Below, piece after piece: positions 3,055-61,099 of a stretch of 64,000 nt of DNA. The stretch covers positions 62,001-126,000 of the forward strand of contig JAQGOP010000035.1 of NCBI GenBank assembly GCA_028293545.1, in the 5' to 3' direction. Both the position numbers and the translations under genes were made by a program. The notes below the pieces were generated by a model. The model had not been told where the DNA came from. It did not search any database and saw only the letters and a list, made by a program, of their open reading frames with translations. Source of the DNA: Verrucomicrobiota bacterium (GTDB lineage Bacteria; Verrucomicrobiota; Verrucomicrobiia; Opitutales; Opitutaceae). Position 1 is the first letter of the stretch, and every line of letters starts with the position of its first letter.

Positions 3055-3077
3055 GTAGCGCAGGCGGCCCGCCTGCT
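3055..3077 (+). repeat. 23-bp REP-like palindrome
   Basis: GTAGCGCAGGCGGCCCGCCTGCT, here split as GTAGC plus the palindrome GCAGGCGGCCCGCCTGC (8-bp arms), starts two bases after the gltX stop codon. It occurs in the opposite orientation at 3348-3370, giving an inverted pair. Further copies are at 5227, 5297, 30421 and 61077. It may double as a transcript-end hairpin for gltX. Confidence 0.9.
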
Positions 3078-3126
3078 TCCGAAAAAATGGCGGGCATGCC
3101 CGAGCAAACGATCGACCGGAATCCGC

Positions 3127-3287
3127 TTGAACAGAAGGCTGCGAAGGTAACGAAGCGGTTTAGGTCCGCGCGACCGAGCGTGCCCTTGACGGTGCGATTG
3201 GAATCTATCGGAACATGGATCGTTTAGGGCACGAGTGATTCCGCTTACTGGGACCTCTTTGTTACCTTCGTTCCCTTCTGTTCAAAA
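3127..3287 (+). repeat. Dispersed inverted-repeat element, copy A
   Basis: The ends are inverted repeats: TTGAACAGAAGGCTGCGAAG on the left and CTTCGTTCCCTTCTGTTCAA on the right. The interior includes GCGTGCCCTTGACGGTG and GATCGTTTAGGGCACGAG. Both interior blocks recur, in the opposite orientation, in copy B near 27.2 kb, and related blocks occur in copy C near 57.3 kb. The element sits between gltX and glnS and is itself enclosed by an inverted pair of REP-like palindromes. There is no coding capacity. It may be a MITE-like element or a structured RNA locus. Confidence 0.85.
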
Positions 3288-3347
3288 GGATTGGGTTGCT
3301 CGTCGGTCGGTCCGCCATGCTCGCTACGCGCTACCCGCTACTTCGAA

Positions 3348-3370
3348 AGCAGGCGGGCCGCCTGCGCTAC
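3348..3370 (-). repeat. 23-bp REP-like palindrome (inverted partner)
   Basis: Reverse-complement copy of the palindrome at 3055-3077, overlapping the last bases of glnS. The two copies face each other across copy A of the dispersed element, so the gltX-glnS gap could fold into one long hairpin. Between 3288 and 3347 nothing else is recognised. Confidence 0.88.
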
Positions 3371-5226: not shown

Positions 5227-5319
5227 GTAGCGCAGGCGGCCCGCCTGCTTCGGGGGATCGTATTCCGAATCTCAAATTCCCAATCACAATCCACGGAGCA
5301 GGCGGGCCGCCTGCGCTAC
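5227..5319. repeat. REPIN-like inverted pair of 23-bp palindromes
   Basis: One palindrome copy at 5227-5249 (plus orientation) and a second at 5297-5319 (minus orientation) are separated by 47 bases, giving a 93-bp inverted doublet. The arms are complementary over at least 23 bases, and each arm also contains its own palindrome. The doublet lies between the 5' end of glnS and the 3' end of the pyrophosphatase gene, touching the latter. This is the arrangement described for REPINs. No REP-associated tyrosine transposase gene lies in this window. Confidence 0.85.
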
Positions 5320-27093: not shown

Positions 27094-27128
27094 AGAATTG
27101 GGCGCCGCGACACACGCGAAAGATTCTT

Positions 27129-27367
27129 CGGCACCAAAGCATCGGATTTTGAACAGAAGACAAAGAAGGTAACGAAGACGTTCTGGTCAGCAGGGTCGTT
27201 CGAGGCCCTAAACGATCCAGGTTTCGAGGGCTTCCAGTCCCACCGTCAAGGGCACGCTCGATCGCGCGAACCTGAACCGCTTCGTTACCTTCGTTGCCTT
27301 CTGTTCAAAATCCGAAGGTTTGCCCGGGTGGTATTTTTTTCGTGTGTTTCGTGTATTTCGTGGTGCC
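27129..27367 (-). repeat. Dispersed inverted-repeat element, copy B
   Basis: Left end CGGCACCAAAGC then TCGGATTTTGAACAGAAG; right end GCCTTCTGTTCAAAATCC then a T-rich tract and TTCGTGTATTTCGTGGTGCC. Read on the minus strand, its interior (GCGTGCCCTTGACGGTG and GGATCGTTTAGGGC) aligns with copy A at 3127-3287. Its right flank aligns, in reverse, with the left end of copy C at 57181. This element accounts for most of the 382-base gap before the next small gene; 27368-27475 holds nothing else recognised. Confidence 0.85.
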
Positions 27368-30420: not shown

Positions 30421-30443
30421 AGCAGGCGGGCCGCCTGCGCTAC
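30421..30443 (-). repeat. 23-bp REP-like palindrome, single copy
   Basis: AGCAGGCGGGCCGCCTGCGC followed by TAC matches the minus-orientation palindrome seen at 3348 and 5297. It sits at the 3' end of the nuclease-like gene that follows on the minus strand. No partner copy is near. Confidence 0.85.
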
Positions 30444-57159: not shown

Positions 57160-57180
57160 CCGGTATCGGACCCGGATTTG

Positions 57181-57574
57181 GGCACCACGAACTACACGAA
57201 GCCCGCGAAAAGAATACCGCCCGAGACAAACCTTCGGGTTTTGAACAGAAGGCAACCAAGGGAACGAAGAGGCCCCGGTGAGCGGAATCGCTCGTGCCTT
57301 AAACGATCTATGCTCCGAGAGCTTCCAATCGCAGCCTCAGGAATTGCTTGTGCCTTAAACAATTCCGGCTTCGGGAGGTTCCAATCGAAGACCGTCAAAG
57401 CATAGGCACCCATCGCACCCTTGGACTGCATGGGATCTGGAGCCTTGGAAATCTAATGCGTGTAGGGCACGAGCAAGTTTGCCGACCCCAACCGCTTCGT
57501 TCCCTTCGTTGCCTTCTGTTTAAAATCCGATGCCTGGTGCCGGGGTATTTCTTTTTGGGCGGTTCGTGGTGGCC
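57181..57574 (+). repeat. Dispersed inverted-repeat element, copy C (longest)
   Basis: A 394-base element between the UDG and Hpt genes. The left end is GGCACCACGAACTACACGAA then AAAGAATACC and TTTTGAACAGAAGGCAAC; the right end is CCTTCGTTGCCTTCTGTTTA then GGGGTATTTCTTTTTGGGC and GGTTCGTGGTGGCCC, forming matching inverted ends of about 85 bases. The interior has several GTGCCTTAAACGAT-type units, one duplicated. It accounts for nearly the whole 434-base gap; 57575-57593 is unremarkable. Confidence 0.85.
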
Positions 57575-57593
57575 CAGTCGGAAAATTACCGGG

Positions 57594-61076: not shown

Positions 61077-61099
61077 GTAGCGCAGGCGGCCCGCCTGCT
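61077..61099 (+). repeat. 23-bp REP-like palindrome, single copy
   Basis: GTAGCGCAGGCGGCCCGCCTGCT matches the plus-orientation copies at 3055 and 5227. It lies between the tRNA gene and the unknown gene at 61296; the rest of 61009-61295 holds nothing recognised. Confidence 0.85.

Follow-up and report, generated by a model that had tools for sequence, protein, structure and literature searches.

Dispersed gene-less hairpins of a Verrucomicrobiota genome share their ends with GxxExxY genes

Introduction

MITEs are short, gene-less elements that occur in many copies and have terminal inverted repeats, a target-site duplication and an autonomous counterpart encoding a transposase. The elements described here were met as three intergenic copies (A, B and C) in a stretch of 64,000 nucleotides from a Verrucomicrobiota bacterium, the whole of which is referred to below as the window. 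Like MITEs, they are short, gene-less and multi-copy, have terminal inverted repeats, correspond to empty sites in related genomes (copy C) and have a possible gene-bearing counterpart. They differ from MITEs in that no target-site duplication was found in 45 copies, in that their ends consist of a threefold word and their interior is palindromic too, and in that the protein of the counterpart, GxxExxY, is of the PD-(D/E)XK type and not a known transposase.

Other described systems share parts of this plan. REPINs and BIMEs are comparable, as inverted pairs of GTAG REPs enclose 24 of our 45 copies, but here the enclosed hairpin also exists without REPs, and no RAYT with this REP on both sides was found at the two loci tested (L044 and L045, at up to 4 mismatches). 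GTAG REPs are marked by a GTAG tag at the foot of the palindrome, and have been reported in the PVC superphylum, being abundant in Opitutus terrae (available excerpts of PMC3733652). The TIRtrons and TIRYTs of the same excerpts are, as here, families of terminal inverted repeats scattered in a genome and common to a gene; the gene in our case is GxxExxY and not a tyrosine transposase, and the inverted repeat of the RAYT-like locus L044 is, by eye, different from the ends studied here. The 23S rRNA intervening sequences with S23p resemble our elements in holding one small gene or none within complementary ends (as far as the accessible part of PMC4990558 goes), and differ from them in that our copies adjoin protein genes, in that GxxExxY is not S23p, and in a word spacing of 8-11 here versus 7 there. 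Finally, the heptanucleotide repeats of Nostoc, Xanthomonas and Beggiatoaceae are period-7 arrays like the GTAGCGN arm of copy A; in the accessible portions of PMC4692102 and PMC4679880 they are not tied to a four-helix-bundle gene, whereas here such arrays flank genes of that kind.

A literature search whose coverage excluded bioRxiv preprints and most subscription journals returned no description of a link between such hairpins and GxxExxY genes. The name GxxExxY turned up in passing, the names PDDEXK_3, TIGR04256 and PF13366 rarely, and four of the repeat strings solely in papers unrelated by title. We know of no biochemistry for any GxxExxY protein.

Results

Anatomy of the three window copies

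The initial annotation had grouped three intergenic loci of the window into one family of dispersed elements, and all three copies proved to be present and to form part of a genome-wide family. We delimited their core hairpins from TTTGAACAG to CTGTTCAAA. The core of copy A lies at 3126..3287 on the plus strand and has ends of the TTTGAACAG type, here CTTGAACAG, with C as first base. By sequence comparison, the core of copy B occupies 27148..27310 on the minus strand. Copy C (57240..57525, minus strand) is made longer by an internal direct duplication at 57284..57390 (plus strand), whose two 51-nt units, 57284-57334 and 57340-57390, match at 78%. Its long inverted ends, which had been put at about 85 bases, form an 86-nt pair (57220-57305 and 57459-57544) that is 74% complementary, and a further outer pair of 18 nt (57175-57192 and 57562-57579) matches at 83%. 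The best alignment agrees with the earlier observation that A and B stand in opposite orientations, but this carries little meaning because each copy is nearly self-complementary.

The spans first given for B and C were wider than these cores; the loci were right, and the excess includes outer inverted arms. In copy C the left outer arm (57175..57220, plus strand) is of the CACCACGAA type and shares 79-86% identity with the arms flanking L141, a GxxExxY gene in the same genome, and the right outer arm (57545..57579, minus strand) is a diverged arm of that type that matches the L141 arms weakly. Copy B has a right outer arm of the CACCACGAAATACACGAAACACACGAAAAAA type (27334..27367, minus strand), 93-95% identical to the L141 arms; a possible degenerate left arm was seen by eye at 27100..27122 on the plus strand, where the match to L141 is weak and scoring recorded no arm. 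Copy A is enclosed by exact matches to a GTAG-tagged REP palindrome on the left (3055..3076, plus strand) and on the right (3349..3370, minus strand). Inside the right REP is a heptad arm of GTAGCGN repeats, placed by eye at 3317..3345 (minus strand) and scored on one side of A; its repeat unit is shared with the arms of the four-helix-bundle gene at L206. The window also contains an inverted REP pair of 93 bp without a TTTGAACAG hairpin (5227..5319), and lone, unpaired GTAG REPs at 30422-30443 and 61077-61098.

Nine mechanical ORFs of 49-236 aa overlap copy C and seven of them cross its edges. The two that lie wholly within it (75 and 79 aa) gave no Pfam match at E 0.001.

A genome-wide hairpin family

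The window genome is a MAG of 3.96 Mb in 63 contigs, 84% complete. Ends matching TTTTGAACAGAAGNNNNCNAAG with up to one mismatch occur in it 112 times (58 + 54), versus 0 + 0 for a reversed-pattern control, and copy C compared with its own genome gave at least 142 matching pieces (40 of 105 first-look candidates were scored), which refutes chance similarity. The fetched stretches contain 45 different two-ended copies and 7 half copies, the two-ended ones having a median length of 163 bp (range 149-285). From the end counts we estimate roughly 55-60 gene-less hairpins. The 30-bp ends read TTTGAACAGAAGGNAACGAAGGNAACGAAG, and both ends of all 45 copies carry the series TTTGAACAGAAGG-NAACGAAGG-NAACGAAG. 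The copies are thus short, multi-copy, terminally inverted and, as checked for copy C, non-coding, as MITEs are.

Every two-ended copy is a hairpin, with 76% of bases paired on average in RNA folds of the 45. Folding, which had been proposed as a check, showed copy C with its arms to be far more stable than shuffled sequence (z = -11.8, 0 of 100 shuffles as stable), and the same holds for copy A (z = -9.2, 0 of 200). The two arms of a copy also match each other better than arms of different copies do (0.938 vs 0.920; 0 of 10,000 permutations as high). The earlier suggestion of structured RNA loci is still a candidate because the hairpins fold very stably, but against it the 64-kb window had nothing except a tRNA at Rfam gathering scores, and the interiors of the hairpins differ between genomes, by eye, even inside the genus. 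A conserved structured RNA was rejected on these two grounds.

Insertion and distribution

Copy C lies in a spacer, 57160..57593, between the stop codons of two convergent genes; the right edge given is the neighbour's stop codon and not an alignment junction. A search for empty sites, also proposed at the outset, found both flanking genes in 9 of 9 same-genus genomes tested (nine of ten other congeners, G176 being left out), with no element match between them. The gap between aligned ends, which includes some diverged coding sequence, is 480 bp in the window compared with 53 bp in G178 and 422 bp in G177; the other seven genomes have gaps of 99-213 bp. The spacer differs too much among relatives for exact junctions to be read. 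Copy C is thus an insertion. The 422-bp spacer of G177 (L244) is a different sequence with no element match. The gene upstream of copy B is conserved in all 5 congener loci that were fetched, and in none of them was the element found after that gene; L227, one of the five, has another TTTGAACAG hairpin at a distance of about 3.5 kb.

An exact match to the pattern of the ends is present in 13 of 120 genomes of the family, the window genome counted, and absent from the 4 further genomes of its genus that this sample contained. Ends were also found in further genomes (see below). In the congener G174 the copies are of similar size and have different interiors (6 of 6 fetched loci). No excess of direct repeats at equal offsets was detected around the 45 copies (offsets 0-139, k 4-9), their outer boundaries being uncertain, and the target-site duplications that the initial annotation proposed to look for were thus not found. 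The number of copies, their patchy occurrence and the empty sites at C agree with the annotation's view of the loci as MITE-like elements mobilised in trans; the limits to that view are that 45 copies showed no target-site duplication and that a search in the Y1 family gave no known transposase with these ends. Carriage by plasmids or phages was rejected, as blastn of composite A against plasmids and of copy B against phages gave no match.

With a rough ORF picker, by which 6 copies overlap an ORF, 43 copies could be placed. All 43 adjoin protein ORFs, a setting other than that of 23S rRNA intervening sequences, and convergent genes flank 15 of them and divergent genes 6, compared with 48 convergent and 40 divergent among 208 adjacent pairs in the same sequences. 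Such an orientation would be expected if the copies were selected regulatory hairpins at gene ends, acting as bidirectional terminators or 3' stabilisers and multiplied by ordinary recombination. The bias is weak, however, the interiors are unconserved between species, copy C is absent from all nine congeners tested, and four congeners have no end match; we regard this explanation as very improbable.

Nesting in REP pairs and other arms

Outside the hairpins there are further inverted arms, a feature that the initial annotation had missed. The palindrome GTAGCGCAGGCGGCCCGCCTGC occurs within 150 bp on both sides of 24 of the 45 copies, on one side of 12 and on neither side of 9, copies B and C being among the 9. 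This REP has a 5' GTAG tag and is found 361 times in the genome at up to 2 mismatches, and its pairs may also hold a short linker, heptad arms or another element in gene-less form. The heptad arm of GTAGCGN repeats was scored on one side of 18 of 45 copies, A included. Scoring also gave arms of the CACCACGAA type, which B has on one side and C and the L020 copy on both. Some of the arm types around copies flank GxxExxY or four-helix-bundle genes elsewhere. The elements are composites, in which hairpins are nested in REP pairs and other arms.

The frequency of these pairs raises the alternative of a REPIN-like system, in which a tyrosine transposase moves the composites via their outer GTAG REPs and the TTTGAACAG hairpin is a mere spacer. 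The reported occurrence of GTAG REPs in the superphylum (excerpts of PMC3733652) is in keeping with such a system, as is our search of the genome with the Y1-transposase profile, which gave three matches, two of them over the Pfam cut-off (L044 and L045). Yet nine copies lack a REP within 150 bp, TTTGAACAG ends in other genomes and phyla have unrelated flanks and interiors, and neither Y1 gene is bracketed by TTTGAACAG ends, none being present in the fetched flanks of about 1.5 kb each. L045 has one REP about 1 kb away, and L044 has, by eye, an inverted repeat of its own. We consider it rather unlikely that the REPs account for the family. The gene at L044 (1300-1950) is a RAYT-like Y1 gene whose inverted repeat contains CCCAGGGCAACGCCCTGGG and is unrelated to the TTTGAACAG hairpins. 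A known transposase as partner, searched for in the Y1 family, was set aside, as no Y1 match carries TTTGAACAG ends.

GxxExxY genes and their arms

The tie between the hairpin ends and GxxExxY genes, likewise absent from the initial annotation, emerged from a scan of named genomes for the ends, which gave 83 loci. The 80 titles listed belong to Verrucomicrobiota, Planctomycetota and Lentisphaerota, apart from one named just 'bacterium'. The GxxExxY profile matches six of the 83 loci (L070, L076, L089, L100, L114 and L139), and in all six a TTTGAACAG motif adjoins the gene. Together with nine loci from family genomes, the set contains 61 pairs of ends that face inward. Of the ten pairs that exceed 230 bp, three (L070, L089 and L100) enclose a GxxExxY gene, and one, that of L122 (2.4 kb), spans apparent host sequence. 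In L076, L114 and L139 the gene stands beside the motif. L114, like L254, has motifs on one side of the gene alone, and at L139 the TTTGAACAG-clade gene (2444-2859) has two flanking motifs that face outward, not inward. The TTTGAACAG-clade GxxExxY genes of three genomes (L254, L261 and L271) have a TTTGAACAG hairpin immediately upstream. Judged by their sequence, the ends of the hairpins are the same as those that bracket GxxExxY genes in related and distant bacteria.

GxxExxY genes usually lie between inverted arms. We scored 34 of them, 29 returned by the search of the class and five from the window genome, and 30 reached at least 14.5, compared with a maximum of 14.0 for displaced controls. 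When arms of different loci were paired, the 99th percentile was 20.5, which is high because arm types recur. This scoring used fixed coordinates; three of the four misses are short loci (L182, L183 and L186) that do show threefold arms with profile-match coordinates, and the fourth, L168, does not. Among 22 new loci at phylum level (L286, with too little flank, was dropped), 20 have inverted arms, the control maximum being 12.0. The plan of the arms is a word of 6-7 bp repeated three times at 8-11 bp and inverted at the other end; the words include CACGAAA, CACGAAT, CACTAAT, CGCAGAG, CACGGAT and others, and the TTTGAACAGAAGG-NAACGAAGG-NAACGAAG series of the hairpins fits this plan.

GxxExxY genes occur in 32 of 57 genomes of the class and 34 of 79 of the phylum. 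Their product (PDDEXK_3 in Pfam) is a small protein predicted to be a PD-(D/E)XK nuclease. Five such genes were found in the 84%-complete assembly of the window genome, none of them of the TTTGAACAG clade. The arms of L141, besides their similarity to the right outer arm of B (93-95%) and the left one of C (79-86%), match the left arm of B and the right arm of C weakly. L144 is bounded by an inverted repeat of 83 bp, of which L153 in the same genome is a gene-less version, about 82% identical and inside a REP pair. At L143 (G000 C11:34195-34533) the gene has one in-frame stop and perfect threefold CGCGAAT arms are kept.

A D, an E/D and a K, which we take, after the Pfam name, to be the PD-(D/E)XK site, are kept in all 65 proteins compared, together with the G and E of the motif. 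Two other leads on these proteins were rejected: a role in anti-phage defence, as the L141 protein had no PADLOC match, and a solved relative, as phmmer gave RNA polymerase alpha alone at E 0.10-0.16, which we took as noise.

Arm words tend to follow protein clades

In a tree of the 65 GxxExxY proteins all ten with TTTGAACAG arms fall into one clade (SH-aLRT 99), whose members come from Verrucomicrobiota and Planctomycetota; an eleventh member, L265, has degenerate arms that by eye follow the same plan. This was a quick tree of 109 columns with SH-aLRT as its sole support measure and 30 of 62 inner branches open, from which four short fragments were left out (L267, L268, L273 and L274). We set eight word classes by hand, labelling 51 of the 65 rows and leaving 14 unlabelled; these classes need 10 changes on this tree (the minimum is 7), compared with a mean of 34.8 after shuffling, and 0 of 200 shuffles were as low. 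One row, L171, was labelled 'other' by hand, having a single weak one-sided motif and CACGAAG as its word. Class by class, seven of the eight cluster (0-3 of 500 shuffles are as low), and the GAAT class shows no clustering beyond chance (44 of 500).

We also guessed the word of new loci from their nearest neighbour. Twelve of 19 guesses were right, L287 being counted leniently among them, where about 5.3 were expected by our arithmetic; the misses are L279, L289, L290, L292, L293, L294 and L297. L278, L288 and L296 had no clear word and were left out, by a cut that was set after the scores had been seen. As far as these sequence comparisons go, each GxxExxY clade tends to have an arm word of its own. 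Part of the match between word and clade could come from vertical inheritance of whole cassettes.

Six of ten end-bearing genomes searched have a gene of the TTTGAACAG clade: G174, G005, G050, G100, G103 and G027, the gene of G027 having degenerate arms. None was found in G046, G077, G106 and G053. G046 is 96% complete, has 24 ends and contributed two fragments too short to place in the tree, and the loci of G053 were fetched in part.

Four-helix-bundle genes and period-7 arms

Genes of the four-helix-bundle family (PF05635, 23S_rRNA_IVP) are present in 41 of 57 class genomes. From 30 loci (L194-L223), 28 were usable and two were skipped as short. Inverted arms scoring at least 14.5 are found in 24 of these 28, compared with one of 28 displaced controls (16.0). 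Period-7 repeats occur in 33 of 56 flanks and in 0 of 56 control windows. At 19 of the 28 loci the period is present on both sides, with units that differ between loci; in 17 of the 19 the units match in inverted orientation (at least 5 of 7 letters), and in L195 and L212 they are direct. The four-helix-bundle gene of the window genome, L206, has GTAGCGA arms, which are found also in copy A.

This gene lies in the pheS-pheT spacer. In G005 and G046, where pheS and pheT were checked with Pfam, the same spacer holds a GxxExxY gene, and in G077 and G050 it holds a GxxExxY gene recognised by sequence pattern, with different arms (the loci concerned are L206, L252, L259, L270 and L271). The spacer may be a shared hot spot or the site of an exchanged cassette.

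Four-helix-bundle genes are known from 23S rRNA intervening sequences, and that they too have arms, mostly inverted, bears on the possibility that our elements act at the RNA level in the same way, their arms pairing in the transcript, RNase III excising them and tolerance letting them persist. The very stable folds of C and A and the better match of arms within a copy would fit this, and for one such element, the excerpts of PMC4990558 describe terminal inverted repeats, RNase III excision and heptameric repeats beside a four-helix-bundle gene. Removal from RNA nevertheless leaves the origin of new copies unexplained, a threefold internal word is superfluous for a stem, and excision would be of little use for the 15 of 43 copies between convergent genes. 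We judge it unlikely that this is what maintains the family.

Discussion

The explanation that we favour, by a modest balance of probability, is that the three loci are non-autonomous hairpins of a class of elements linked to GxxExxY genes, probably acted on in trans by the PD-(D/E)XK protein. The hairpins would spread by insertion between genes. The GxxExxY protein would recognise its own threefold word, perhaps with about one unit per helical turn, and would cut or join DNA at the arms. Hairpins that have no gene but do have the right arms, presumably derived from gene-bearing elements, could then be moved in trans. New cassettes may often land at the centre of existing palindromes, which would produce nested composites, and movement of the outer layer by a REP/RAYT system may operate too. 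Against this explanation, a TTTGAACAG-clade gene was not found in this 84%-complete assembly or in four of ten end-bearing genomes, and target-site duplications, looked for in 45 copies, were not found.

More tentatively, and with considerable doubt as to whether it will hold as a whole, we propose that GxxExxY proteins may be the enzymes of an unrecognised class of mobile DNA, made up of one-gene cassettes and hairpins moved in trans, with threefold-word ends read by the matching nuclease clade. A second class, parallel to this one, would consist of four-helix-bundle genes with period-7 arms and would explain some bacterial heptanucleotide repeats, and composites would arise from insertion of cassette into cassette.

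If word and clade were related by a code, a large and uncharacterised family of nuclease-like proteins would gain a function that can be tested, and several kinds of intergenic repeat in these phyla would gain a cause. The parallel pairing of four-helix-bundle genes with period-7 arms would open the older question of bacterial heptanucleotide repeats to testing.
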